The notes beneath the pieces were generated by a model that worked only from the letters and a program-made list of their open reading frames with translations, did no database searches and was not told the DNA's origin. Both the position numbers and the translations under genes were made by a program. From Owenia fusiformis (lineage: Eukaryota > Annelida > Polychaeta > Sabellida > Oweniidae), in the NCBI GenBank assembly GCA_903813345.2, contig CAIIXF020000012.1:16302020-16366019 (forward strand): a DNA stretch of 64,000 nucleotides. Direction: 5' to 3'. Positions 1 through 23,805 of the stretch are shown piece after piece (positions within the stretch are counted from its first letter, which is position 1; each line of letters opens with the position of its first letter).

Positions 1-3000
1 CATCTGTGGCATATCAAACAATGGGAGAGTGTCACAAAAGGCCTTTGTGAACATCCTGATACACTTGCCTGGAAACACACGCCCAGTACGTCCTGAAACA
101 TGATACAGAAATTATTATATGTTTCGGTGAAAAGAAGTTAATATCATAATGATTAAATGCCCCTCTCCCAATAAAACTGAAATGTTGACTTGCATTCAAA
201 GCAGATAAGGTGCTGGAGAGAAATATTGCATTGTACCTGTTTGTTGACAATAGGCTAAATACAATGGGAAATAATCTTTTAATTTTCATTCAGTGAAAGT
301 GATATCAAACTTGAAATCTGTATTTATAATATTGTCTAATATGTGTTTTTAAAGATTATTCATCAATTTACATTTTTTTTGAAAATTTCATATTTATTTA
401 GTTGGGTTCAGATGATGAAATATTTAGAAGATGATGCCCATGGTAATTACAGAGAATCTTTGTCAAAACTCCATTTTCAAGTCAAACACATACAAAACAG
501 AAATGACAAAATGTTACCCCCCTGTAGTTGCTCACAATATTATGAGATCAATCTTAAGTCAGATTTGAATTTCTGAGAACTTGCAGATGATTTTGAAAAA
601 AATTGGTCAATTATTAAAAAATATCTTTTTTTGACCTTATGAAGGTCATTTGATCTTCCGAAAAGTTGCAGATTGATTTTCAAAAAATTGAAGTCAAGCT
701 TAACAGTATTTGTTAAGTTATTGGAAGTTGTAAGAATTTGTTACAGACGCCAACCCCCACCCGCTGATTGCCAACAACAGCCATCCACCAATTGCCGCCT
801 GCTGATCGCCGTCACAAAAAATGGAGACCATAACTTTTTGGTGGTGACATGAAAACCGAATACAGTCATGTTCTTATGAAATCTGCATAATGTTTTGCAT
901 TTTACCTTTTCTCTGACTTAAAGAGGCTTTAGAACATCGAACCACCTCTAATACTGTCATCTTTCTATCGGGTTTGTAGACATTTTGTTTTTTCCAGCCA
1001 AAGTCAATGACCAGCCTCACTTTGGGCAACGTAAGAGAACTTTCTGCGACATTTGTTGCGAGGAAAATATGGCAGACATTAGGCGATGGTGGCTTAAAGG
1101 CTGCTAACTGATCCTCAAACGGAATCTAAAAACAATAATCCAAGTTTGTAAACATATAAGTTCTAGGCTGAATTTTCTACATAATTCATATCAAAAGACA
1201 TTACGGGAACACACGTTACTTTCAAGAAGAACATTTTTGGTTTATTTCACTTGAATAATCTGAGTCATAATGTATCATAACCAAGAAGAAGGTATTACTA
1301 AATGGAGTAATATTACTAAAGCAATTTCAATGTTTGGTGATTTGAATTAGCATCATTTAAGGTTGTGGGATATTTTTATGTTTATGTTTAAAATATCATT
1401 CTCAAATATCATAAATTATTACTAACCATAGAATGGAGTGCAAATATGCAGATGGGACACTTCCATCTTGAGTTCTGTTCATAAGGAGCCAGCATCTCAT
1501 AAAACATGTCAATGTCCATGTAACCTGAAACATGACAAATAACGTCTGCTTAATGCAATGCATTATGGGTATAATAGAATATTTCCATTTTGAGTTCTGT
1601 TAATGAGAAGCCAATATCTTGTAAAACATGTCAAAGTCCATGTAGCCTTAAATATTGAAATGATGTCTGATTATAGTGCATGTATTGCATTATAATTGTA
1701 TTATGGGACATTTCAGTTCTGTTCTGTTCTGAAGTCAGTGGCTGTGTCCTCGTTACATGAAATACTGGACACAAAGACTGCATACTGTAGAGCAATGAAG
1801 CCTTTTGGACAATTTTTTCTCTACGCCTGTTCATACATGTAAGAAAACACTTGTAGATTTTAATGTCCATATCAGGCCCAAGCCAGCTTTTGTCAAAGGG
1901 CAACTTTGAAAAATTTGGCCTAAAGTCACATGAAAAATGTTCAGAATCGTTACAAATTGCTTGATTTTGAAAGAATTTTATTTTTGGCATGAACCCCTCA
2001 AACCCCTTGGGCACGGGCCTGCATATTATCTGTAACAACAATAGATAAGTTTATAGTTCTCTCAACTTAGGGATAGAATGTGACATTTTGTCCCTTGATT
2101 CTCTCACCTGGTAGAAACATGAGGATTGACTCTCCAGGGGTGACTGATGCCTTTATCAAAGATATTGTCAGCTGTTTCATGGCTGCAATTAGTACATTTC
2201 CATTTGCTTTACTAGCTTGTTTACTAAGAGCTTGACTTGTCATGATCTTGCGGTTTACTAGGTCAGTCACCAAGGTCTTAATCTTGGCATTCCTCTCTCT
2301 GAAACAAAACAGTATCACACTCTTGAAGTTAAGGGGCATTGCACCATTGAAGTCCAGGGGTATCACACCCTTGTAGTCCAAGGGCATCACACCCCTGAAG
2401 TCCAGGGGCATCACATCCTGAAGTCCAGGGGCACCACATCCTTGAAGTCCAGGGGTATCACACCCTGAGGTCCAGGGGCATCTTAAAGTCCAGGGACATT
2501 AAAGGAGGCAATGTCATTCAAAAAATGGAACCTATTACATCCCAAAGAGATTATATGCTCAAAAACTTAAGTAGTAAGAAGTAAATAAGGAATACATACA
2601 TACAAATAATACATTAGTACTGAAAGCCCTGAGTAAATATGAAGGTACATGTATTCCCTTTTTATTGTCTGTGCTATAGTATATTCACAAGATGCATTTA
2701 TATATAGAGCTAGGCCAGGCAGGCACCTTTTCAAGCTAAGGCAATATTCTAGTTTATGCTAACAACTTATTTATTAATTAATAATAAAAATAAATATTCC
2801 AAGCTTACTCCATATCCTCATTTTTGGCAACTGCTTCGCCATTATAGTACTTAGCAAGAGACGTGCGGTTAAACTGGCTTATGTTTTCCGCAAGGCTGCA
2901 TAACTGAGAGGGATTCAACTCTGACTTGAACTGTTCATAGATATCTTCCAAGTAGATTTCCTCAACGGGGAATCTCTTTGCTCCAACAAATACTGATTTT

Positions 3001-5279
3001 TTTGTCATATTTGCAAGCTCCTCATCGGTTGTAAAGTACCTAAAATATAAGTACAGTTTCAAGAGTTATTCAGTTTGGTGCTCAAGAGGCAGTGTCTCAT
3101 AAAAACACAATTAGATTGCCCCCTTCATATTTTTGTATCAGGAGATGTAATACTAGTATATGTAGGTTCATCCATCAACTCCCCAACTGTCAGACACCAA
3201 CTTCTACATTTACGGTATCAATTTCATAACTGCATTATTTACTGAATGGTCAAAAAAATTCAAAGAAATTTTTTTTAAATATAAAATTGCACTGTGGTCC
3301 TTTACTTTGCTCATTTTATAATATGTTTGGTATGACTAACAAGTTTACTGCCTGGAAGAGCTTCTCAACATTTTCACCAAAAATGCATCAGATCTTTGAT
3401 TGAAAGAAAAACTGTGTCTACTTTACATGTACATGTAATACCTGATGAAGAGATCCCCTTGTATAGTTGCTGACATTATCACCACCTATACACGTTTGTG
3501 GTTCAGAGCAAGCAGTTTGACAATGAGTCTACTTTATATGTAATACCTGATGAAGAGATCCCCTTGTATAGTTGCTGACATTATCACCACCTATACACGT
3601 TTGTGGTTCAGAGCAAGCAGTTTGACAATGAGTCTACTTTATATGTAATACCTGATGAAGAGATCCCCTTGTATAGTTGCTGACATTATCACCACCTATA
3701 CACGTTTGTGGTTCAGAGCAAGCAGTTTGACAATGAGTCTACTTTATATGTAATACCTGATAAAGAGATCCCCTTGTATAGTTGCTGACATTATCACCAC
3801 CTATACACGTTTGTGGTTCAGAGAAAGCAGTTTGACAATGAGTCTACTTTATATGTAATACCTGATAAAGAGATCCCCTTGTATAGTTGCTGACATTATC
3901 ACCACCTATACACGTTTGTGGTTCAGAGCAAGCAGTTTGACAATGAGTCTACTTTATATGTAATACCTGATGAAGAGATCCCCTTGTATAGTTGCTGACA
4001 TTATCACCACCTATACACGTTTGTGGTTCAGAGCAAGCAGTTTGACAATGAGTCTACTTTATATGTAATACCTGATGAAGAGATCCCCTTGTATAGTTGC
4101 TGACATTATCACCACCTATACACGTTTGTGGTTCAGAGCAAGCAGTTTGACAATGAGTCTACTTTATATGTAATACCTGATGAAGAGATCCCCTTGTATA
4201 GTTGCTGACATTATCACAACCTTTACGCGTTTGTGGTTCAGAGCAAGCAGTTTGACAATGAGGCTGAGTAGATCCGAATCTAACTCCCTTTCATGAACTT
4301 CATCCAGAATGATGTGGGTTAGATTTTTGAAGCTGTTAGGGTTGTGGACCAGCCTCTGAAAGTATCCCATAATGCATTTGGACAGGGCAATAGGCAGACG
4401 GAACAATCGAAGCTTCTAGAGGCTTTGCTATTGAAATTTTGTTGAAGTCTTGTTTTTTAAAATATAGTACAGGAGATTCGCATATTTATCCATTTATTCA
4501 TTTTAAAGAGAGAATTTCTTTCAATTTTTTTCTTTTCCTGACCGTTTTCGCAAAAAGTGAACATATTTGAAAATGTTATCATACAAAAATGTTTTAAAAA
4601 TCTAAAGTGAGCATACCTGTATCAAATATCCTGTAGTGACAAACAATAGCGAAGTGGTCTCATTGGCTGTATAATCCTGACCAATTTTGTAGCCAACCTC
4701 AGTTCCAATTGCGCATCCACGCTCAGAAGCAACACGTTCTGCAAGTGTACATGCAGCAATACGCCTTGGCTGAGCTACTATGATATTAGGCTTGCAGACA
4801 TACTCCAAGGGATTCCTGAAAGAAAATGGGTGAATGTTCAATGAAAAATGAATTAATAAAAAGCAATCAGTTGCTAAAATTGAGAAAATTGGGTTGACAA
4901 TGACACAGGTTCATAAATAATGTCATTATATATCATGCCATAATTTTGCTAAGTCCTGGATTGAATGAGCCTTATTAGGATGAATATGTCATTGAATGTA
5001 CAGTATGTTATATCCATCATTCAACTTACTGCTTATAATCATCTAAGATGAACTGTGGAACCTTTGTGCTCTTCCCACATCCTGTCTCACCCTCTATACA
5101 CACAACTCTATGCGTCTTCAAGTGTGAGATGATCTCGTCACGGAAACGCATTATGGGTAATTCATCAGGATTTTGCGGTTCAATAAATTGAGGGTCGGGA
5201 ATGTCATCTGACTCCTCCCATTCTGAGGTTGACAGCTGAGGAGTGTGACGTGGTGTTTTAACTTCAAAGGATCCTTCCA
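1..5279 (-). CDS. DEAH-type RNA helicase module (3' part of nuclease-helicase fusion gene; runs off left edge)
   Basis: Exons, in order of transcription: 5030-5279, 4617-4815, 4177-4355, 2809-3039, 2108-2298, 1427-1524, 906-1125 and 1-92 (continues). All junctions are GT-AG and phase-consistent. Numbering from the Met at 17151, the helicase motifs are: Walker A GETGCGKST (~690-698), Ia AQPRR, TTG, DEVH (~794-797), SAT (~826-828), FLPG, the motif V block ATNVAESSLTLPKVRLVIDF, and motif VI QRKGRTGR (~1080-1087). This is the SF2 DEAH/RHA set. DEVH, the VIDF tail of motif V and QRKGR look most like TDRD9/Spindle-E or YTHDC2, which act in piRNA and germline RNA control; I infer an ATP-driven RNA remodeller. 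Its first exon starts at a pyrimidine-rich acceptor with no convincing in-frame ATG nearby, and joins in phase to the nuclease exon ending at 5651. The C-terminus lies outside the window. Confidence 0.9.
502..855. repeat. interspersed repeat family with GGTCA blocks (copy A, in intron)
   Basis: This copy begins near ATGACAAAATGTTACC and ends near GGTGGTGACAT. Inside are the text AGTCAGATTTGAA, the phrase GATGATTTTGAAAAAAATTG, AAGGTCATTTGATC and GGAGACCATAAC. The same order of blocks occurs at 38497-38972 and, inverted and shortened, at 23806-24066. Ends that begin and finish with versions of TGACA suggest a non-autonomous element. It lies in the intron between the last two helicase exons in the window. 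Confidence 0.6.
1581..1648 (-). pseudogene. Degenerate duplicate of helicase exon 1427-1524
   Basis: The stretch repeats the 5' two-thirds of the neighbouring helicase exon, with mismatches. On the plus strand both share CCATnTTGAGTTCTGTT, then AGnCAnnATCT, then AAAACATGTCAA and GTCCATGTA. The copy lies about 125 bp upstream in gene orientation and has lost a clean reading frame and donor. It is a small tandem exon duplication that decayed, in the same gene that carries the 105-bp exon-end array at 3441-4265. Confidence 0.7.
1873..2021. repeat. Short interspersed repeat with CAGGCCC ... GGGCCTG ends (copy 1)
   Basis: Copies at 22520-22728 and 29279-29462, and a short one at 56326-56397, share the ends (CAGGCCCGTAGCCAGG-like and its complement). 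They also share internal CAAAATCATGCAG-like text and a CCCCTTGG block. This copy is the most diverged. It lies in a helicase-gene intron. Confidence 0.5.
2320..2500. repeat. Minisatellite, ~30-bp unit (GAAGTCCAGGGGCATCACA-like)
   Basis: About six or seven imperfect copies of a unit containing CTTGAAGTCCAGGGG plus ATCACACC lie in the intron just upstream of the exon 2108-2298. On the minus strand the array is open and reads as a PLDF-type repeat, but it has no splice support, so I treat it as non-coding. Confidence 0.75.
3441..4265 (-). repeat. 105-bp tandem array of a helicase exon end plus its splice donor (8 units)
   Basis: Units start at 3441, 3546, 3651, 3756, 3861, 3966, 4071 and 4176, an exact 105-bp period. 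The unit at 4176 is the true 3' end of exon 4177-4355. Read on the minus strand, each unit holds about 88 nt of exon (through motif III and the codons before the donor), then GTATTACATATAAAGTA from the intron. The seven extra units are nearly identical. They all carry TAG where the real exon has AAG, just before the motif III region, so read-through would truncate the helicase. Each retains the donor ATCAG|GTATTA, so seven decoy donors sit in the intron before exon 2809-3039. Confidence 0.95.
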
Positions 5280-5525
5280 CTAAAAAACACAAAAATTTTC
5301 AGAAAGAAATTCGTATTGATCAGTTTCATTTCCAATAATAATCATAATTTGAGTCAATAGTAAAATTTTGATTCACAACAAAATGATATTCATTGTTGAA
5401 AAAATGAATCATTACGGGTACTGTACATTAAAATAGGAAAAATGCTAAAGTTTTAATAAGAAATAACCATTTTGATTTTCATAGATTGACAATATAATTA
5501 AAATACATTCATGCTTGTATTGAGT

Positions 5526-5531
5526 TTTATT
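5526..5531 (-). promoter_or_regulatory. Candidate intronic poly(A) signal AATAAA
   Basis: On the minus strand AATAAA lies about 35 nt after the first in-frame stop (5565-5567) that would be met if the donor at 5650 were not used. Retention of this intron would end the protein after the nuclease module with about 28 extra residues. This would be a route to a nuclease-only isoform. The hexamer alone is weak evidence. Confidence 0.35.
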
Positions 5532-5650
5532 TGTACACACATACACTGTAATTCTATTGGTATTTTAGGAAGAAGACAGTTGCAGTTTTGATCTCATGAG
5601 CATCTTTTGAAAAATGCCCCAATGTTGAATAAGTTCAAAGTATAACTCAC

Positions 5651-8600
5651 ATGTCTTAGAAGGAATCTGCAACACTTTCCTGTCGGATTCTGTCAGTAAT
5701 GTGTTACTGTTGATCAAATCCAGGTATATGTCCTGTACAGGCTGGGGAAGCATATCTTGAGACACCCCTGTTCAGTATATACAATTATACACGTAAAGCC
5801 TCAGTCACATTTGCTCTATGACGGCTGTATAGTGGCCGTAGCTTCACAAAATTGATATAGAAAATCTATATCATATTGCTTAAGCTAAGTTCACACCAAT
5901 GGCGCTTTGATGGCGCTTTAATGCAGCGTGCAAAGTGGCTTTGCACGCCCCATTAAAGCGCCATTGGTGTGAACTTAGCTTTATCCTCGTATTTCTTGCT
6001 ACATATTTCTCTCGATTTTGGGAAGCTACGACCGCTGTACAGTTGCCATAAATCAAATGTGACTGAGGGATGTTACATGAAACAGTACAGAATATTACAA
6101 CAAATTGTATACGAATAAGTGTAGCTCCAATATTGTGTTGTCTCACTTTTATGGGATACTTTCTAAATGGAATTGTTGAAACCATGGGAAATATAATACC
6201 ATAGAAAGAAAATAATACATTAATAAGACATCCTTACATTCACAACTTTTTATGATTTTATACCTTTAGTAAAAACAAATGACTTTAAAAATATCCTAGA
6301 TCAATCTTCAATCTGGACCTACCTGTCTCTACGAACGTCATGTAAAAATCTACAAAAGCACGTCCAATGAAGATATCTCGTGGATTAGGCTTGATATCTG
6401 GCAGAAGTAGCAAACTTGCAAGTATCTCACTGAAGTTGTAAGTTACCTAAATAATATGGGAATTAAGAACACTCTTAGAAATACTTTACTGATATATGTT
6501 TGGCAGTTATCTCCTGGTGTATTGGAGTAATATGGTGCTGCACCCATTTTTGGAAATTACTTTGAAATTACTCCAAAAAAGTGAAATTTTCAAAGTCAAG
6601 GTTATCAAACTAGATCACAAATGGTGTTATCTAAGTTTCATAAATTTTGTTGTGAAAATATACACAGGAATATGTACAGGAAATTATAATAATTACACTC
6701 CATTTGAGAATTTGGAAATGACCCACATCTAGTAATATATAAAATGCTAATTGTTTATGATTCATCATCTACTGATTGTAAAAGATTGTAAATTACAAAC
6801 AGGCCCATAATGCAACAGTAGTAACAGACGACAGGGAACCTACCTGTAGTAAAGTACTGAGACTCAGACAGCGAATACTGGGTATACCCTCATAGGCAAT
6901 GAAATTTTGCTTCGGACAAAACATCATCATCACTATGGCGATCAGTTCTGTTACATCAAACGTCAAATGTGACTGTGGATTTTTGCTGGCAATGATTAGA
7001 TAGTGGACGATGTAACATTTGAAAGCTGTCTTGGGACCATATTTGGTAAAGTAGTTGTGATTTATGCCTGAAAATTAGAAATATTTTTACTTTAGCCATG
7101 TTCCAAGTATGTTTATAGTATATCTATATAAATAACCATGCAACATCAGTGAAGATCATATGATAAGAACTGTGGACATTAATGGCCTGACATATTTCAA
7201 ATCATAGGTACAATTTTTCTAAAATGCCCCACTAGTAAACTTTTTTTTAAATACGATGAAATGCGTTCCTACCATCTGCCAGCGTGTTCTCTGACTGTGA
7301 CATCACAGTGTCAAACAGGTGTTGACGTTCACTAACACTCATGGTTGCTATGTCAACAGCAGATGGGACCTTCCCCTGTAGATCGCCATAGAACACCTAC
7401 ACGTACATGAACATAATTGAAGTTAAATATGGAAATTGGCAATATCTTGCATGGGGTAAAGATGGCTATATCTCTGTTAGTCATATGAGAAAACATCATC
7501 TCTGTTTCTCTTTTGATCAAAATATTGATTTTTCTATTATCATTACTCATAATGAATCGCTGATATCGATGCTTATACTGTTTGGCCACTGCGGATATTT
7601 TTGTCTTGAACTTTCTAGGGTTGCTCTATTGACAGACATCTTAAATGACTAATTTCTTTTAAATCTTTTTATCAGTATCATTTATCAAAAATGTACATAT
7701 AATCATAAATAAAAAAAAGTGTAGCTAATATGGCCTGGACATTGGAAAAATAAAAAATCTTGGATTTTCTGGATTCTGCATTCAATCAGGAAACTTTGTT
7801 GTGTTTCAAAGCATGTGAATATTTCTCAAATTACAAAAGTTTTAATTTGTTCCATATGCTTTGATTACTGTTTTAAATTTATCAACTGATAAGGTTTATG
7901 TTGACCTTTATAATGACATTGATAAAATAAAACTGTATGAAAACAAGTATCTGATTTTCATGTACATCAACAACTCCTTACCTTTTTAATGGCAAATAAT
8001 TCTGAGTCTGTACGACCATATTCCTTTACACAGAGTTCACTTCCGACCTTTCTTCTTTCCGTCACAATGGCGTAAAGATATTTTCGGATGTTCTCGGTGA
8101 TGTGATATGATGAGACCTTTTTTGGACTCATATCCTCCACTCTAATAAACTTCCAGTATACTTTGTTGTACCTAAAAGGAAATTGCAACAATTGAAGATA
8201 TATAAAAGCAGCCATAATTAGTTCAGTTCAATCAATCACTTCGAAAAAATACAGTACAGTACAGTACAATACAGTACTGCCCAGTTCAGTACAGTACAGT
8301 GTTACAGTAGTATCATGTACCTAAAACCTGAAAAGGAGCTAGTCACTTGTTTAACTGCTGACATGATGGGGAATTATTTCAAGCTTTAATATTTTCAGAA
8401 AAGCAAATTTTATATCCAAGTCTATTGATATTGCAAGTAACATATACTATGATAAACATTTTTTAGGTTTGTTCAGGATAAGAATTTTAGCTATAATCCT
8501 AATAGACAAGATATTTTGAAAATGCAAAAAAGTAAGAACTTACCAACTAAGGACTACTGTGTCAAAGTTGCCTCTTTGTACATTATCCTCTAAGTACAGA

Positions 8601-11600
8601 AGAGAAGGAGGTTTGATTTGTGTGCTTGCGGGCTCAATCAGTTCATTGTTGTAGAATCTTCTAGAATATTCTATGGCCTCTTTGAATTCTTTGTCTTTGG
8701 TCTAGAATAAAACAAAATGTAGATCCATAATGATATTGTTGGGTTATGGAAGAAATATGAATGAAGAAAATCTGTTTATAGGTCCTAACCAATTATATTT
8801 TCTATGAGTCCCATGATTTTAGGTTACTGGAAAGTATATGTCTTGGCCTATATATTATATAGGTTGAGACATACTTTCCAGTGTTATATAATATATAACA
8901 CATACTTGTTGTGTTATTAAGCATGCAATCTCTAAGTACACCCCCAATTCGCACTCTAAATTCAAAGTACCGTACGGTAAGATATCCCACTTTCAAAGGT
9001 TCATTTACATCAATGGTCATTTGACTAAACATGTTTCATATATTGAAGTGAACATAACACTACATATTTTACTGTTCATATTTCAATTAGGGATTTGAGC
9101 ACTGAATTGGATGCTTAGTTTATAAGTCACACATGGCTAGGCAAGGTGTGTCCCATTCAAGCCAATCTGAAAACACAGTATTTTTACATGACAGCAGTGC
9201 ATGAAATAATCAATAATGCATTTGTTGTGGTGATGAGATTGCCAATACTTTACCCTTGGAAAAAGTTCCTTTGAACATATTCTTTTAGTGATTTTCTATC
9301 TTTTAGGTGACTTTGTAGAAAATATTTTGCAATGTTTGAAAAGAATATAAGCCCAAGCATTGTAGCTGCTTCATTCCACTCAGGCGTTGTTTCCTAAACT
9401 TTGCATTCCCGCTGCGTGATCTTGCAAAGATTTTGAAACAACACCTTCATGGTAAGTTTCAGCAAACAATGCACTGAATCCAGGGCTTAAATCCTTAAAT
9501 ATAAGACAAGTGGATTTGTTTCTACCTTAAATCTAGAACAAAGGTCAAGGACATGTCATATCTTGCCATTTCAGAAAAATAAATTAACTGAAATAAAAAA
9601 TAATTGAAATAACTGAAATAAAAAATTGGTAAAAATAAATAAATAAATAAATTAACTGATACTCACCAGGAGAGATGCTATTATAGGGATAGATTCAACC
9701 GTTCCACCATTTGCAAACTTTTTGTAACCCTCCACATTCTGATTGAAGAATTTCTGTTGTTCATATTTTTCGATGAAAGGCTTTGTGAAGTCACTTCCTG
9801 TTAGAATGGCAACTTCTATTAATTCGTGTCGGTCTCTCAGCTAAAATATAAAAACCAAAAATTGTCTTCAATAATTTTAGGAAATTTTTTATGCTTCTTA
9901 CTCATTGCAGGGGTTTTATTAGCAGCAGGCCAACCTTAGTTATTTTTACAACACTATCTATACACACATGTAATCTGTTTTGGGGAATGTATTTTGCAAC
10001 CTTTTATCATAACCTTCCATATAAAAAAATTACATTAAATAAGATTTTTCCTTGTTTTTACTCAGTGAGTGAGTGAATGAGATACAACAAAGTAGCTGGT
10101 TTCTTCAAAGAGGCAAAATTAAATGTGGGGACAAATGACGTGATTTATTAATATGCATCCCGGTAAGCATTAGTTCAGACAAAAGAACGTTTCCATTTGT
10201 CCAAAAAATTGTTGATACACAACACAGATAAGTGTAAGGTTGGACAGACACACAAATGATTGGAGATTATTCCATGAGCCCATCAAGAGTGCCACAAAAG
10301 GAAATAATTATAGCAACCCTGGGTTTATAAAAAGTCCATTGTTCTATTATACAGTAAAACCTGTGTATATTGAACATTTTTTGCTGAGAAAAAAAATAAT
10401 GTTCAATGTTGGTAGATGTTCACTACAGAGAGGGTTATTATTCAGAAGTCAGTAGGAGCATGTGTGAACGTGGATGAAGGGTGTCCACTCGTAGAGACAT
10501 GTTTCACTAGAGAGAGAGGTGTTCACAAGGACAGGTTTTACAGAACTCTGTATATCATTGCTCTATAAACTGACTCCAGATCCCTCGCCCTATAATGCGA
10601 TCTGGTCCATATGAGTTGGGAGGAATATGGGAATAAAATAGAAAATTACACAGGATAAAATATGGAATTTGGGGAAAATTAGAAAATATAGTAAACTTGA
10701 ATTGTTATGGGGACAAACACATATATTGCATATTGGCATATGAATAACATATAAAATATAACTGAGGATGAAAATACAAAATATTACCACCCATGTTGTA
10801 CCCTTGTAGACCTAAAACAAAACTTATTCTTACCTCAAATGATTCCACCAACTTTTCAGGTGTTATCATATAACAAATCAGCTCTTCCAGTTTTGGTGAC
10901 TTCATCCCACACAACAGACTCTTTGTGAACTCTCCTGAAATTTTCACATATCAGCACATTGCATTGAACTGTATTGAACATTAACAAATACACATGATTT
11001 ATATATGACTCGCTGCAAAGACTTCCATTTTTTTGTATAAAAATCATATCAGCATTATTTTGTCCCTGGGGTTTCACTAGAATTTCTCACAACAGGCTAA
11101 TAAATGAACATGCGGTACAAACTTCGACCGTTAATTTGAATTTTTGACCTACCGGATGTTTGAAAATCAAGGATTACGAGTCTCGTACTGCACCGTTTTT
11201 CTTCAAACTTGTTCCATTCAAAGCATAACAAAAATCCCTTTCTGTTGGTACATTATTCTCTTAAACAGAGTCCCTACTTCCAGCGGCATTTTGGTCCCCA
11301 GCTGTAAGAAGGCCTTCTAACAGCTGGGGACCAAAACGCTGCTAGAACGAGGGATTCTTTACAATAAAGTAATGCACCGACAGAAAGGCAATTTTGTTTT
11401 GCTTTTAATGGTATACATTTGAAGAAAAACGTTGTAGTATGAGACTCGCAATCCTTGATTTTCGAGCATCTGGTAGGTCAAAAATTCAAATTAACGGTCG
11501 AAGTTTGTACCGCGTGATGAAAACATCAGACAAAATTAATGGAAACGGTAATTTTCACATAAAATAGCACTTTTGAGAAAAATGATGTTACAGGTCTGTA

Positions 11601-14600
11601 AATTAATAAATAAGAGGTATATGTTGGTGTTGGAGTTATAATATGTTACATTGGGGTATACTCTACATAATCAAACACATTTAGAACTATGGGAACCCAT
11701 ATTAAATTGTATATGGCATTAATAAGAGTCAAATTCTCTCTTTTTTCAGCGTTACGAACGGACATTTTAAAATAAGCTATTTTAGAATAAGTTTTGAGAA
11801 AAAACTGAATAAACTTAAATATAAAAGTTATATGTTTATTTTAGTATTTTCAGTTTCCTTTATTTTGCCGTTTATTTCAACAAATAACATCGAACAACAG
11901 AAAAGTTATAGCATTTTTAGATAAGCCTACCTCCGTTACGACTTTCTGAATTTTCAGCACTAACATTTTTGATTCATCAACTAACAGGTAAAATATATAT
12001 TTTTATTTCTTTATTTTTGTGTTTTAATAAAGCCTTTTGATAGTTATAAGCAAATAAAATATGAAAACATGTAAATCTTTCAAATAAACAGAAATATTAT
12101 TATTTAAAGTCTAAATATATCTAAGAGACAAAAAAGTGTAGCATCCGTAATCTGTAGAAAAAACTAAATTACATGTTAACTGAGAAATATTTTTAATTTT
12201 TATTGTTCTAGATTTAACAAATACCCCGCCCTCAAGAAAATAGCATATTTAAATATTCTGTGTTTTTTCCTTTTCAGAGTCCTGAGCTGATCTAGGTTGT
12301 GTAGCATCCGTAATAGACAATGTAGCATCCGTAATGTCCTTTATTCCCAGTTAAAGAGAAATAAACACAATCCTTCAGTATTATAAAACATGTCATATTG
12401 CAACATTGATTGATACAGACTAGAATTACTTGATATCCTTAGGAACAGAAGGGGTATTTAATTATGAGAGTTGACAAAGAACCAAAACCATATTTTTCTT
12501 TTTTAAACTTCTCATATCAAACTATGGAAAGGATGAACATTTTTATTTCAGGAATCATTCATTCAATTAAAATTAAACTGGCACAATAAAAAAATTGGAC
12601 ACTATTTCTTTAATAACATCAAACACACTATATTACGGATGCTACATATTTTGTTTATATTACATAATGTAAAAAAACAAAGTCTGACTTCAGAAGTGAA
12701 CTTATGAAACCAATAGATCAAGACTAAGAGCAACATAGGACAAAATGGGACTTTCAGCAGAGAAAAACAGAGAAAATGTGAGAAAATATCGAGAGAAATT
12801 AAAACAAGACAAATCTAAATATGAAAAGGTAAAAGAAGTTGATCGTAAAAGAAATCAAAAAGCAAGAAAAGAGCTGAAAAAAAGATGTATGAAAAATCAG
12901 CCTTTACACGAAGCAATGAAGGAGAAACAAAGAGAACGAATGCGTGCTTATAGAAAAAAGAAGAAAAATGTGGAAAGAGATTCAGAAAAAGACAAGGATT
13001 TCTGCAGGTAAAAAGGTAATGGCAGAGAAGAAAAGAAAAGAACAAAAAGCTAAAAACAGAAAGCAGAGACTGCAAGACAGACTGAAAAAAAGGCGGAAGT
13101 ATCTAGGGTACAACGTTGGAGGATGCGTATAAAATTAGAACCCAAGAAAACCCATTTGGAACTGAAAGAAATGAGAGAAGGTTCAAGAAAAAAGCAAGAG
13201 AAAGTCTACCAAAAACTCCAATAAAAAGGTTCTATTTTATTGGTTATGCACCGCAACCCACCCCCCTGGCTACGCCTATGCCTGTCGAGAGACAAAAAGA
13301 GAAGCGAAAAGACTGTTAAAACAAGTACTTCCAATAAATACTTTTACAGTTATATGTGTTTATCAACGACCCTACTTGTCAAATTAATAGAAACGAAAAC
13401 TAAATTCTTTCATTACGCGAAAACCGTTGAAATATCTACCTGATTCGCTGGAATAGTCATTAGTCACATTATTTCAGAGCAAACAATTAGCATCTACTAT
13501 AATATTTATTTTTATATCCGATATACAACTGATATTGATATCTTTCCCCAGGCAATGTGTTATCTCATGATCCGTTGACATCATCAACAATTTGATTTAC
13601 CACAAGAGAGTAACCAACATTCCTTAATTAAAAAGTTGACATTTCTTGAATTTTACAGCAAAAACACTATGACACAATAACATCGAGGCAAAATCAAAAC
13701 ATGGTGTGGAAATAAAAGGCATACAAAATGGCCATTAAAATGAAATTCTTGTTCATAAAAGTATCAACTTTATTACATTGGACGCAAATACAAAGTATAG
13801 AATAAATAAAAATAACGTCTTCCCAGAGATTACATTACGGATCAGTAAGTCAACAAATCTAACTGTTAAATAAACAAACTTAGCCCATGTCTGCAATTGT
13901 TCGTCTGCTGGTAAGAACTCGGTATCCTCTTCGGATAATCAATTTCTGTGACTACTGATGTCTTAAATAATTCATAAAGACGACGTTGTCTTTAAATAAG
14001 GATCTTTAATCTACAAACTGTAAATAAATAGCGTGAACCGGGATCGTAGACAACAACATTAATACCTTGCTGTCCTCTGTTAAATCACGAAACCCGTTTC
14101 CCTTAAATTTTTTACTAAGAGACTTATACATGCATAAGTTATCTATCAAATTATTTTTCTTTAAATATTAAATGTCGTCTAAGTTTGTTTTAATGATTAC
14201 TCTTCATCTAGATTCATTAATCATCACGATATTTATATATACATATTATGTAATAGACCTATCATATCACGTCCGTAGTTACAAAGTCAACTACATATTA
14301 ATGCAATAGAATAAGACTCAATAATTAAAAAAATAAACCTCAGTATTCGGGCCTAAAAACACAGATAAGTGTATCAATACCAACGGGTAAGCTCAAATAA
14401 CCTTCCAAATAAGTGTATCAATAATCAAGGATTGCGAGTACTAAGGACCGGGTAAGATGGTGGTAACATTGGTATTGCTAGTTATTAAACACGATTTTGT
14501 CTTGTGATAGCACAAGACAATATTGTTGATAAACTATAGAATTGCAACAGTTAAAGTTGCTAACTTAGAGTAAGATGTTACTGTTCAACTGCAGCCACAA

Positions 14601-17151
14601 AAGACTGTAAAGTTAAATAAGATGATTGTTCAACTGCAACACTAAACATTGCAAACTTATGTTATAAGATGTTACTGTTTATCCTCAACAACAATGGACT
14701 GCATTAAGTATTATTAAAAGACATTTCATTTTTACGCATCACAATTTTTCATTTTTACATATAGCATTCCTTTTACTGTAGAACAATGGAATGAAAACAA
14801 AATAGATGCTACATGTCATTATATTTTCAATTGGAACCATATTGTTTTGTTTTTATTTGTGGAAGCTAGGGTGAATAATGTGTATGCAATCAATACTTTA
14901 CCAATACATGAACTGACATTTTACCATCAGACATCATAATATTAAGTACTAGTGGAATAAGAGGTAGGCATAAATACTTAATGTTTTTATAATTCTAAAT
15001 TGTAGCATTTGAATATCATATTTATAAGATATTATATTTACTATTATCTATTAGTATTAAATATTATAAAACATTTTACATATAACTAGATATTTCCAAT
15101 TGATAATTTTATTTTTTCTCACGAGCTGACTTTGTTAATTTCACCTCTAGAGAAGTATAATTATATGAAATACCTATTCACTGAAGTGTATCATATGTCT
15201 ATATATTGCAGATATCCTAATATCTGATTATGAAGATACATGACTAGAAGAACAAGTAGATGCAGTTACTAGTTTATGGAAACTTACAATTCCTAACCAA
15301 TGTGAGTTCATATGTTTATATTCTTTACTATTTGTAGCATCCGTAATTTTTTCTATTCTATTTTGAATGTATATAAGATTAAACACTTGCAATCTACACA
15401 GTTGTTTTATATTTTCTATCACTAAACAATGTTCAAGTAACAGGATACTACTATATTCTCTTCTTTTAGACAGTCAATATATAAATGTTCCACAAAAGTA
15501 TTCTTGCTTGAGCATCTTTTTTGAATTTTTTGTATAATTATGCATTTCATATTTGTACCTGACAAAAAAATATTTTAAGTCTCTTGTAACTTATTATTTA
15601 ACAATTTCAGATTAAATATGCCAGCCATAAAACAGCATTGAGAGCTCCACACTTCAAAATGAAAAGGGTATCATTGTACATTTTTATGTAGCATCCGTAA
15701 TATCACCTACCTGTGTAACAAACTGTAAGCATCATCATACTTGCTTGTTTAAGACAAGGAAATGTTACTTCATTGATTAAAGACTGTTTTCTGTACAAGA
15801 AATTAATATCTTTGTCACTCTAACTTAAGTAAGATGAACTAGAGAATAAATGAACCATCACTAAGTGGAATAAAAATTTATAAGATAATCAAAAAAAGTG
15901 ATTTTTTGTGAAAAGATATTTAAATTCCAATATTTTCAGTTTTTATATTATTAATTCTACCATTTTCTTCCATTCCAGAAACTTACCAGTGACAATGTGC
16001 AATTCTTGTGGAAATGGGATACAATAAATTTGAGACATATAGCAGCTGTTATTCTGATGGTGTCAAACTTTGGATGACCGAATGAGACACTAAGAGATGC
16101 GAATACTTCAGGATTTTTGTGTCAAATGATCAGAAATAGATTTTTCTTCAATAAAAAATACAAAAAACAATACTTATGACAGGTTTATTTTTTGATTGTC
16201 ATGTCCTCCAAAAGTGCTATTTTATGTGAAAATTACCGAAATCATAAATTTAACATGGAAAAGTTAAAAAGTCTATGGATATAAACAACTAATCCAATAT
16301 GTTCCTTTAATTCTCCTTTCTTCATATCGCATCTCCTTTCTGATAATATTTTGAGCCCTGCATTGCACTGCATTTGAAGGATAGAGCCAGAGGTGATGAA
16401 GTTTTAAAATTTGATGGGACACAGTAAAATTACAACTGCAAACATAACCCAAACCATGCAAAATAATGTAAAATGGAGACATACCTGTCACATCAAAAGT
16501 CTCTTTGTCATTATCATTTCCCATAATGATGAAGTTAGAGCCATCCATGAGGCAGAAATCGCTATCAGCTCCCAGGATAGCAAATGCCTCTTCGTTGGCC
16601 TTCATATATTGCATAATAGTAGATTCTGCTTCCATTTCTGAGAAACAAAGCTCCACTTTTAGGGATTGTAGTGTTCGGATGACTTGTGTTTTCGCTAGCA
16701 ATGATAAACTAACTCTGACCATTCCAACTTCAGAACCCTTGTAACCATTACAAACATGACTGATATCAACGATGGAGTCATAGTTCTCTTTACTGCGTGC
16801 CTTATTGGTTTCAAATTTGGCATTGAAGCCTTCGATGTCAGTCCCAAGGCTTGCGTCAAGGAAAAACACAAGTTCAATGTTTTGCTGACGCAGTATTTTG
16901 ACATACCTCTGCACGAGAATATCTATGACATCATACTCGCCACCGTATAAATACAGGTATGTCAAACTGACATCGGAATTACGAATCTGCAGAAAATGTA
17001 TGACATACGTCTCCAGCTTAAACAGGAAGTTTGTAAAATCGACCAACAACTTAAGTCCCCCTCTATGTTCAGCTTCTGCAACTAAATCAACCTCAATTCC
17101 AAGTGTCGAAATGTTGCGTACACAGTGAGATAGTAATCCTCTCACACCCAT
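5651..17151 (-). CDS. Asteroid/XPG-FEN1-like nuclease module (5' part of nuclease-helicase fusion gene)
   Basis: Exons in order: 16485-17151, 10834-10934, 9667-9840, 8544-8701, 7982-8171, 7273-7396, 6844-7067, 6323-6446 and 5651-5767; they give 626 codons. The start MGVRGLLSHC is the classic XPG-family N-terminus, whose Gly2 is used for DNA threading. Acids equivalent to the seven FEN1 metal ligands are visible: D38 (LLVDF), D99 (FFLDA), E174 and E176 (MEAE), D196 and D198 (ADSD) and D273 (GSDFT). Exons 3-8 continue into an Asteroid-type C-terminal region (ENIRKYLYAIV, then VKEYGR), and the length is close to that of Asteroid proteins (~670 aa). A metal-dependent structure-specific nuclease is inferred. 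The final codon is split T|TG across the intron into the helicase exon at 5279, so the frame continues without a stop. The first intron (5.5 kb) is filled by a DNA transposon. Confidence 0.88.
5799..6068. repeat. Foldback element with CCTCAGTCACATTTG ends
   Basis: About 47 bp at the left end (CCTCAGTCACATTTG, then GTGGCCGTAGCTTC) return inverted at 6020-6068. A second foldback element (5881-5982) is inserted inside, so these are nested MITE-like elements in an intron of the nuclease module. Confidence 0.75.
5881..5982. repeat. Near-perfect 100-bp foldback MITE
   Basis: The arms TAAGCTAAGTTCACACCAAT and its inverse, with GGCGCTTT and AAAGCGCC next inward, make an almost complete hairpin. A shorter relative with the same end (GGCTAAGTTCACACCAACGG) is at 41312-41380, so it is a mobile family. 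Confidence 0.8.
8250..8301. repeat. ACAGT microsatellite
   Basis: Imperfect pentanucleotide run (ACAGT repeated, with AATAC and CTGCCC interruptions) in an intron of the nuclease module. Confidence 0.8.
8826..8882. repeat. 57-bp palindrome
   Basis: ACTGGAAAGTATATGTCT returns as AGACATACTTTCCAGT around a TATA-rich centre, making a small foldback in an intron. Confidence 0.7.
9117..9525 (-). repeat. Interspersed repeat related to 55447-58345
   Basis: The text GGCTAGGCAAGGTGTGTCC, the GGGCTTAAATCCTTAAATA block and an AAAGAATAT stretch match, inverted, the flanks of the composite repeat at 55447-58345. No coding content is evident. Confidence 0.55.
10351..10542. repeat. Mariner-like MITE, ACAGTAAAACCTGT ends (copy 1)
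   Basis: Left end ACAGTAAAACCTGTGTATA, right end GGACAGGTTTTACAG; the left end is preceded by TAT. Internal blocks TTGGTAGATGTTCAC and GTGTTCAC recur in the copy at 38270-38449. No ORF. Confidence 0.7.
11113..11512. mobile_element. 400-bp foldback element (CGGTACAAACTTCGACC ends)
   Basis: Nearly the whole segment is an inverted repeat. The left arm CGGTACAAACTTCGACCG is mirrored at the right end, and the centre is a GGTCCCCAGCTG hairpin. A fragment of the same family (AATCAAGGATTGCGAGTA) lies at 14424-14441. It abuts the left end of the 4.7 kb transposon. Confidence 0.8.
11546..16237. mobile_element. 4.7 kb DNA transposon with 30-bp TIRs and subterminal 14-bp motif
   Basis: The left end CGGTAATTTTCACATAAAAT, followed by AGCACTTTTG, reappears inverted at about 16207-16237. 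The motif GTAGCATCCGTAAT (or its GTAGCATCCGTAA core) occurs at 12138, 12301, 12322, 15334 and 15688, and inverted at 12632. It is clustered toward both ends, as expected of transposase-binding subterminal repeats. A lysine-rich ORF lies at 12745-13320. I see no recognisable transposase and no clear target duplication, so the superfamily is undetermined. It fills intron 1 of the nuclease-helicase gene. Confidence 0.7.
12745..13320 (+). CDS. Lysine/arginine-rich coiled-coil ORF inside DNA transposon (frameshifted)
   Basis: An 88-codon ORF starts at 12745 (MGLSAEKNRENVRKYREKLK). It is dominated by K, R, E and Q with heptad-like spacing and spaced KYR/RKR motifs. Similar composition continues in the next frames (12944-13132, then about 13110-13220), suggesting one longer protein broken by one or two frameshifts or a missed intron. 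It resembles the highly basic, nucleic-acid-binding N-terminal ORFs seen in some multi-copy elements of aquatic animals, but I cannot name the family. Part of the ORF around 13240-13290 looks like later insertion. Confidence 0.45.
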
Positions 17152-23000: not shown

Positions 23001-23805
23001 CTAAAAGTATAGTCTCTGCCTTATGGAGCATGAGTTCACGCTCTTCCTGGTATAATTACATTCAAAGATATAACGTTGGACCATCTCTGTCCGATTACAG
23101 TGCTCACATATATTGGAAATGTCAGTTTGAAATTTTGCTAGATGGTGATTCAGCTTTGAATGACCTGTAATGATTTGGTTTATTTTGCAGAACTCTGTTC
23201 TATTGCTCTCACAGAGATTATTTTGTACATCTACAGTCTCTATGATCTCTTGGATGTACTTAGCTTTTGTAGAATTGTCATAAAGATTCTGCCATTTTTT
23301 CAAGGCAGTATTTTTAATGGCTCTGTAGACCTCCTCTTTGCTTTGTTTCATAGAGGCTATTCGCAGGGTCGCTGCTTCCAACGCTGTTTCCTTGGCATAT
23401 GTGTCGGCTAATTCATTGCCTTGAATTCCGAGATGACTTGGGACCCAGTAGTAGGTTAATACATTGCAGCTTGCACTCAGGCAGTGGACCATGCAGATAT
23501 CTCGAATTTTGTATGCACGCCATTGGATTTCAGACCTGGGTTTGCTACTTCTGAAAGTACTTAAAGGTGCAGGTTGGCAATCGCAAAAGATGTGAATTTC
23601 AGAATTGTTAATAGGTAAAGTGTGCAGGACATCAAGTGCAAGATGTAAAGCATGGACCTCCCCACTGAAGTTATTGCTTTTCGCACTGACTGCTTTTTTC
23701 AAGCAAACAGGATCAGACTTTGTTCCGGCTAGAGAAATATGATCGCGCTAGACCCTGTTGGTCCTGGATTGGTCAAAGTTGAACCGTCCGTGAAGACAAT
23801 CACAA
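23001..23805 (-). pseudogene. Decayed LINE fragment: RNase H domain
   Basis: Starting at about 23805 on the minus strand, VFTDGSTLTNPGP is the classic RNase H first strand. After two stops and a frame change, the ORF at 23702-23001 continues with the E-containing helix (SGEVHALHLALDVL), IHIFCDCQPAP (active-site D replaced by a CD-type context) and YYWVPSHLGIQGNELADTYA. It ends with a CEHCNRTE...C zinc-knuckle-like tail typical of R1/I/Jockey-type non-LTR elements. No reverse transcriptase remains, so it is a 5'-truncated dead copy. Confidence 0.85.

Follow-up and report, generated by a model that had tools for sequence, protein, structure and literature searches.

A probable single gene in Owenia fusiformis joining an Asteroid-like nuclease to a DEAH helicase

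Results and discussion

Gene structure at the locus

The window, a stretch of 64,000 nucleotides of the Owenia fusiformis genome (C12:16302020-16366019), was extended with 20 kb of flanking DNA, the exons were rebuilt from the minus-strand sequence, and genome searches covered 498 Mb in 525 contigs. The rebuilt gene model comprises 19 exons and 4,321 codons on the minus strand, with a joined frame that is open across 12,963 coding bases and has its sole stop codon at the end, and 18/18 introns are GT-AG and in phase. The gene is truncated by the window, as exon 17 continues to position -45 and exons 18 and 19 are located in the flank, where exon 19 (9,461 bp) is open throughout and lies within a 3,180-codon stop-to-stop frame. 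An earlier sequence-only reading had described 17 exons in one frame with 1,113 continuous codons. This was reproduced here as 16 complete exons and the start of exon 17, all with GT-AG introns and agreeing phases, with exons 1-16 (3,247 bases) and 92 bases of exon 17 together giving 1,113 codons and zero internal stops; the codon split as T/TG at 5651/5279 was also as described. The predicted protein can be divided into a nuclease half (residues 1-626), a DEAH/RHA helicase half (627 to ~1,300) and a long tail beyond (~3,000 residues). The features are as follows, in window positions (negative numbers lie outside the window), with C8 and C1 denoting nuclease paralogues elsewhere in the genome:

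16485..17151, minus strand: exon 1, nuclease core, residues 1-222 and the first base of codon 223, with D38, D99, E174, E176, D196 and D198; aligned with the C8 and C1 paralogues
10834..10934, minus strand: exon 2, nuclease; homologous exon in C8
9667..9840, minus strand: exon 3, nuclease, containing D273
8544..8701, minus strand: exon 4, nuclease C-terminal region
7982..8171, minus strand: exon 5, nuclease C-terminal region
7273..7396, minus strand: exon 6, nuclease C-terminal region
6844..7067, minus strand: exon 7, nuclease C-terminal region
6323..6446, minus strand: exon 8, nuclease C-terminal region
5651..5767, minus strand: exon 9, last nuclease exon; its donor interrupts the codon to which the stop of C8 aligns (with a one-residue gap nearby)
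5280..5650, minus strand: junction intron, 371 bp, with one AATAAA and one ATTAAA
5030..5279, minus strand: exon 10, Met-free linker (627-669) followed by helicase motif I
4617..4815, minus strand: exon 11, helicase
4177..4355, minus strand: exon 12, helicase DEVH and SAT motifs; 3′ end and donor copied in a 105-bp tandem array
2809..3039, minus strand: exon 13, helicase
2108..2298, minus strand: exon 14, helicase
1427..1524, minus strand: exon 15, helicase
906..1125, minus strand: exon 16, helicase motif V and start of motif VI
1..92 in the window and to -45 outside, minus strand: exon 17, end of motif VI (GRTGR)
-391 to -510, minus strand: exon 18, flanking DNA
-924 to -10384, minus strand: exon 19, flanking DNA, 9,461 bp

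Several repetitive elements were also observed. At 3433-4262, a 105-bp unit is present in 7.9 copies at 99%, carrying the 3′ end and splice donor of exon 12 head to tail into the intron and thereby creating eight near-identical candidate donors, and a 24-bp unit is repeated in tandem (7 copies, 82%) at 2312-2482, just before exon 14. Within intron 1, 43-nt inverted repeats (88%) flank ~4.7 kb at 11533-16251, which looks like a DNA transposon insertion and contains several TGTAGCATCCGTAAT copies and a lysine-rich plus-strand ORF (12739-13011); adjoining 204-nt arms with 85% complementarity at 11109-11516 of the same intron form a foldback or MITE-like element. Outside the gene, a 248-codon open frame on the minus strand (23001-23747) resembles a retroelement RNase H region, as judged by eye only. 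There was no Rfam match in the window.

The nuclease half

The seven acidic residues on which the nuclease assignment had been based (D38, D99, E174, E176, D196, D198 and D273), which we take to be the FEN1 active-site positions, were all present in the rebuilt protein, and the cluster of seven acidic active-site residues typical of FEN/XPG (Rad2) nucleases is thus in place. Alignment of the three nuclease paralogues showed D38, D99, E174, D196, D198 and D273 to be invariant in 3/3, with E176 replaced by D in C1, and K112, K117 and R119 were likewise invariant. The sole Pfam match of the nuclease half was XPG_I (E 0.0075, 17.1 bits against a cut-off of 24.9), with XPG_N unmatched at E 0.1 in the whole protein, and none of the 8 matches in a genome search with XPG_I was at the three nuclease loci. 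XPG_I_2, the Pfam Asteroid model, was unmatched at E 0.1 in the fusion protein and in the C8 and C1 products, and its genome search matched only C3:22691982, with the fusion locus absent.

Profile comparison was more informative about the relation to Asteroid. A profile of the three paralogues matched the C3:22691982 product at 33 bits over the whole sequence, covering profile columns 67-466, against no more than 2.4 bits in 200 shuffles, and the similarity to this Asteroid-type protein therefore extends beyond the active site. Because of this match to an XPG_I_2-bearing product, the label 'Asteroid-like' given in the sequence-only reading is fair with respect to the genome's own Asteroid-type protein, although Pfam's own Asteroid model gives no direct match. 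In solved structures, a single-sequence search with the nuclease half gave zero matches at E 10, and the best matches of the three-paralogue profile, Exonuclease 1 (E 0.054) and a FEN-1 (E 1.1), were not significant. AlphaFold2 gave no confident model of exon 1 alone (mean pLDDT 36.4). Searches further afield gave zero matches in PHROGs and two chance-like matches in NCBIfam, and 0 of the 17 stretches in viral contigs and 0 of the 43 stretches in bacterial and archaeal genomes that fit the search pattern encode a relative.

The helicase half and the C-terminal tail

The helicase motifs reported previously were all located in the rebuilt protein, with GETGCGKST at residue 690, DEVH at 794, SAT at 826, NVAESS at 1034 and QRKGRTGR at 1080. 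Pfam matched Helicase_C (1.3e-11), DEAD (1.1e-10) and HA2_C (21.3 bits, equal to its cut-off), so the motifs, two RecA-like domains and HA2 that define the DEAH/RHA helicases are present, with HA2_C borderline. The fusion locus was not among the 12 matches of a genome search with HA2_C; six HA2_C matches at C12:33493055-33671970, five with near-equal E-values and a weaker sixth, suggest a tandem cluster of DEAH helicases there.

In the structure library, the helicase half matched DHX29 (1.1e-84), DHX36 (2.5e-79) and Spindle-E (6.4e-76). It had been assigned to either the TDRD9/Spindle-E or the YTHDC2 type. The former is compatible with the DEVH motif and with the scores of a paralogue on C7, among which Spindle-E is narrowly ahead, but a search of residues 1-4321 for a Tudor domain was negative (Pfam, in six pieces, by which weak or split domains could escape), and none of the 43 genome matches for Tudor was near the fusion gene or C7:27.6M. 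Mouse TDRD9 also carries a DEVH motif, and its ATPase is required for transposon silencing, according to the part of PMC5481186 available to us. The YTHDC2 type was not upheld, as none of its accessory domains (R3H, ankyrin insertion and YTH, as described in the accessible portion of PMC5832417) was found in residues 1-4321 with Pfam at E 0.1.

From residue ~1,300 onwards, no Pfam family scored above its cut-off. Modules in the tail were picked by eye and then aligned, seven of one kind (2673-3970) and four of another (3541-4125), and because of this choice they match their own profiles by construction. One extra module-like stretch (2232-2316) reached 8.4 bits against no more than 3.6 in 50 shuffles, with other extra matches at shuffle level. 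The plant RNA-recognition model PORR gave a match that overlaps the first module (22.1 bits, cut-off 22.3), and two modules overlap matches to WH_Egal (22.1 and 19 bits, cut-off 27), which makes the Egalitarian winged helix a candidate identity for the modules, below its cut-off; OST-HTH was unmatched in the protein with Pfam. A genome search with WH_Egal gave four matches on C5 and one on C11, and since the tail was not among them, a binding role for the tail is a guess. The module profiles matched nothing at E 0.1 in solved structures, and the tail piece 2170-3427 (1,258 residues) had no other genome match at E 0.01. The alignment with the C7 paralogue extends around residues 1,430-1,640, a stretch that may be common to both genes.

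Unfused paralogues in the same genome

Searching the genome with the protein identified two relatives of the nuclease half, one on C8, running downward from 29186054 with 42% identity over the first exon, the other on C1, running upward from 35611453 with 32% identity; both were modelled with our own spliced aligner using the fusion gene as query before the three proteins were aligned. The C8 gene is a free-standing nuclease of nine exons. Its introns occupy 8/8 of the positions found between exons 1-9 of the fusion gene (7 exactly, 1 with an offset of two residues), and the alignment, which has a one-residue gap nearby, places its stop at the codon that the junction intron interrupts in the fusion gene. 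Two candidate acceptors a few codons apart were found for its last exon, both leading to the identical stop, and none of the 36 matches of the genome helicase search was located on the C8 contig. The C1 model is less certain, as the alignment ends at residue 581 and 4/6 introns are exactly common.

The helicase half has a multi-exon relative at C7:27637505-27646169, with 6/9 helicase introns exactly common. Its scores with Spindle-E (1.2e-78), DHX36 (4.3e-77) and DHX29 (2.1e-76) are too close for its family to be settled. Across 30 kb at this locus, of which ~11 kb lies upstream of the first confident exon, the nuclease profile scored no higher than 2.6 bits; C7 was also absent from the matches of the genome-wide nuclease search, and no intron was placed at residue 627. 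Upstream 'exons' of C7 that aligned before residue 657 were taken as spurious. In a tree of eight helicases, all from this genome and 5/8 of them partial spliced alignments made with the fusion gene as query, the fusion gene and C7 were paired at 100/99 and not with an intronless frame on C12, and the pair was placed weakly (59/41) next to the L016 helicase. That intronless frame, of 2,559 codons with another DEAH helicase, contains the best-scoring helicase piece outside the locus (C12:1664624). It occupies the minus strand of C12:1660661-1668337 and displays N-terminal short repeats (NQGSVHDRAYS and alike), opposite to which lies a 307-codon open frame, and a cysteine-rich C-terminus that is RING-IBR-like by eye.

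The joined architecture was found in 0/2 nuclease paralogues and 0/1 close helicase paralogues, and none of the other DEAH matches listed by the genome helicase search was near a match of the nuclease search. The sequence-only reading had regarded a lack of joined relatives as an argument against fusion, and this lack was partly borne out, for the paralogues of this one genome.

One gene or two

The genomic anatomy supports the earlier reading of a single gene, with exact phase, a fusion donor (T/GTGAGT) that sits where the free-standing C8 gene has its stop codon, and a junction intron of just 371 bp. As unfused nuclease (C8) and helicase (C7) paralogues exist, the locus seems to derive from two genes that became connected through the splicing of a newly arisen intron of 371 bp, and at the level of sequence these paralogues in the same genome are the best evidence that the fusion is real. 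Nuclease and helicase probably form one fused gene. Phase agreement alone would occur by chance in one of three cases.

The main alternative for the gene itself is that two neighbours on the same strand only look joined, with the nuclease ending in the junction intron after a 28-codon extension and the helicase promoter located in the 3′ part of the nuclease gene. Several observations fit this: the halves occur as separate genes elsewhere in the genome, exon 9 when read through into the intron is open for 28 more codons before a stop, AATAAA (5531) and ATTAAA (5457) are located inside the intron, and Met670 lies just before motif I, at a place where the C7 paralogue, by eye, also has a Met. 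However, the two polyadenylation-like motifs match what composition predicts (0.72 and 0.83 expected, respectively), and the position of the donor at the paralogue's stop and the continuation of the frame in phase also speak against this alternative. The first Met encoded by exon 10 is residue 670, so a helicase gene of its own would have to squeeze promoter and start into very little space; a 3′ end, a promoter and a first exon would all have to share just 371 bp, and we consider two separate genes distinctly unlikely. Somewhat more room must be left for one locus with alternative products, in which polyadenylation within the intron gives the nuclease alone and splicing gives the long fusion. 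A consensus donor and polyadenylation-like motifs do share one short intron, and the free-standing C8 paralogue shows that the genome keeps the nuclease alone, but with these motifs at chance level this arrangement is possible rather than likely. A nuclease-only isoform is possible beside the fusion, and Met670 could, judging from its position just ahead of motif I, start a helicase-only product. A single fused gene is the reading followed below.

Proposed origin and function

We propose that a splice donor replaced the stop codon of the nuclease gene, whose transcript then came to be spliced to an internal exon of the helicase gene next to it. In the fused protein, the tail may hold the protein on nucleic acid, the helicase may pull a structured strand through in an ATP-driven manner, and the nuclease may cut at the boundary of single and double strand, so that unwinding and cutting would be coupled by being in one chain. 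Given one fused gene, the case for such coupled unwinding and cutting is evenly poised. An RNA is the more likely substrate than a DNA repair intermediate, because of the helicase relatives (DHX29/DHX36/Spindle-E-like), and it may perhaps be of viral or transposon origin. In the silkworm, virus and dsRNA both induce Asteroid, which restrains the growth of the virus, as stated in the available text of PMC10298989. A role in RNA defence is nevertheless doubtful for the fusion protein, and a contribution to germline small-RNA work is a guess. The explanation as a whole, of a gene fused by a stop-to-donor change with coupled unwinding and cutting and with RNA as the likelier substrate, appears likely from the sequence. 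A more far-reaching version is speculative and seems unlikely to hold in full: here the stop-to-donor change would have linked a nuclease of Asteroid type with a TDRD9-like helicase whose tail had already acquired an array of nucleic-acid-binding modules, and the resulting 4,321-residue machine would unwind and cut foreign or transposon RNA, as an animal analogue of Dicer assembled from unrelated components.

Two other functions deserve consideration. The fused protein may act on DNA in repair or meiosis, as a nuclease specific for flap or branch structures that has an unwinding helicase attached; the FEN1/EXO1-type acids are as expected for such an enzyme, DHX36, which scores high, is named a DNA/RNA helicase, and human ASTE1 is included in a table of structure-specific nucleases in the part of a review available to us (PMC11574390). 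RNA helicases, by name, make up most of the best matches of the helicase half in the structure library, however, and nothing in the tail points to DNA, making a DNA substrate rather improbable. The nuclease half may alternatively be catalytically dead and serve as a binding platform, in line with a far diverged sequence in which XPG_I is under its cut-off and XPG_N is unmatched, but the seven acids are kept and six are invariant across three paralogues, and of all the alternatives considered here we regard this as the least probable. Coupled unwinding and cutting, with RNA as substrate, is preferred over both.

Fused proteins reveal which enzymes cooperate. If the fusion protein is made, the Asteroid-type nuclease, whose substrate is poorly known, would act on what a DHX36/TDRD9-like helicase unwinds, and the locus would represent a clear case of gene fusion in which a stop codon was converted into a splice donor and the two unfused paralogues can still be compared in the same genome.

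Comparison with known systems

With the Asteroid/ASTE1 family (Pfam XPG_I_2), as represented by the frame on C3, the nuclease half shares a YGG-E/D-Y motif and the placement of acidic residues, whereas it is fused to a helicase, is unmatched by the XPG_I_2 model and is interrupted by 8 introns, in contrast to the 708-codon open frame on C3. The seven acids are also common to FEN1 and EXO1 (Rad2/XPG), but without a significant sequence match or an XPG_N match. DHX29, DHX36 and TDRD9/Spindle-E have the helicase core and part of HA2 in common with the fusion protein (E 1.1e-84 to 6.4e-76), and differ from it by its N-terminal nuclease, its ~3,000-residue tail and the lack of a Tudor, YTH, R3H or ankyrin match. 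An Asteroid-like nuclease and a DEAH helicase in one protein were not found among the titles and abstract openings searched, which covered the literature in part.

Fusions of nucleases and helicases as such are already known, from Dicer, WRN, DNA2 and the archaeal Hef. As at the locus described here, these join a helicase motor and a nuclease in one chain, but their nuclease and helicase families differ from those in the present protein.
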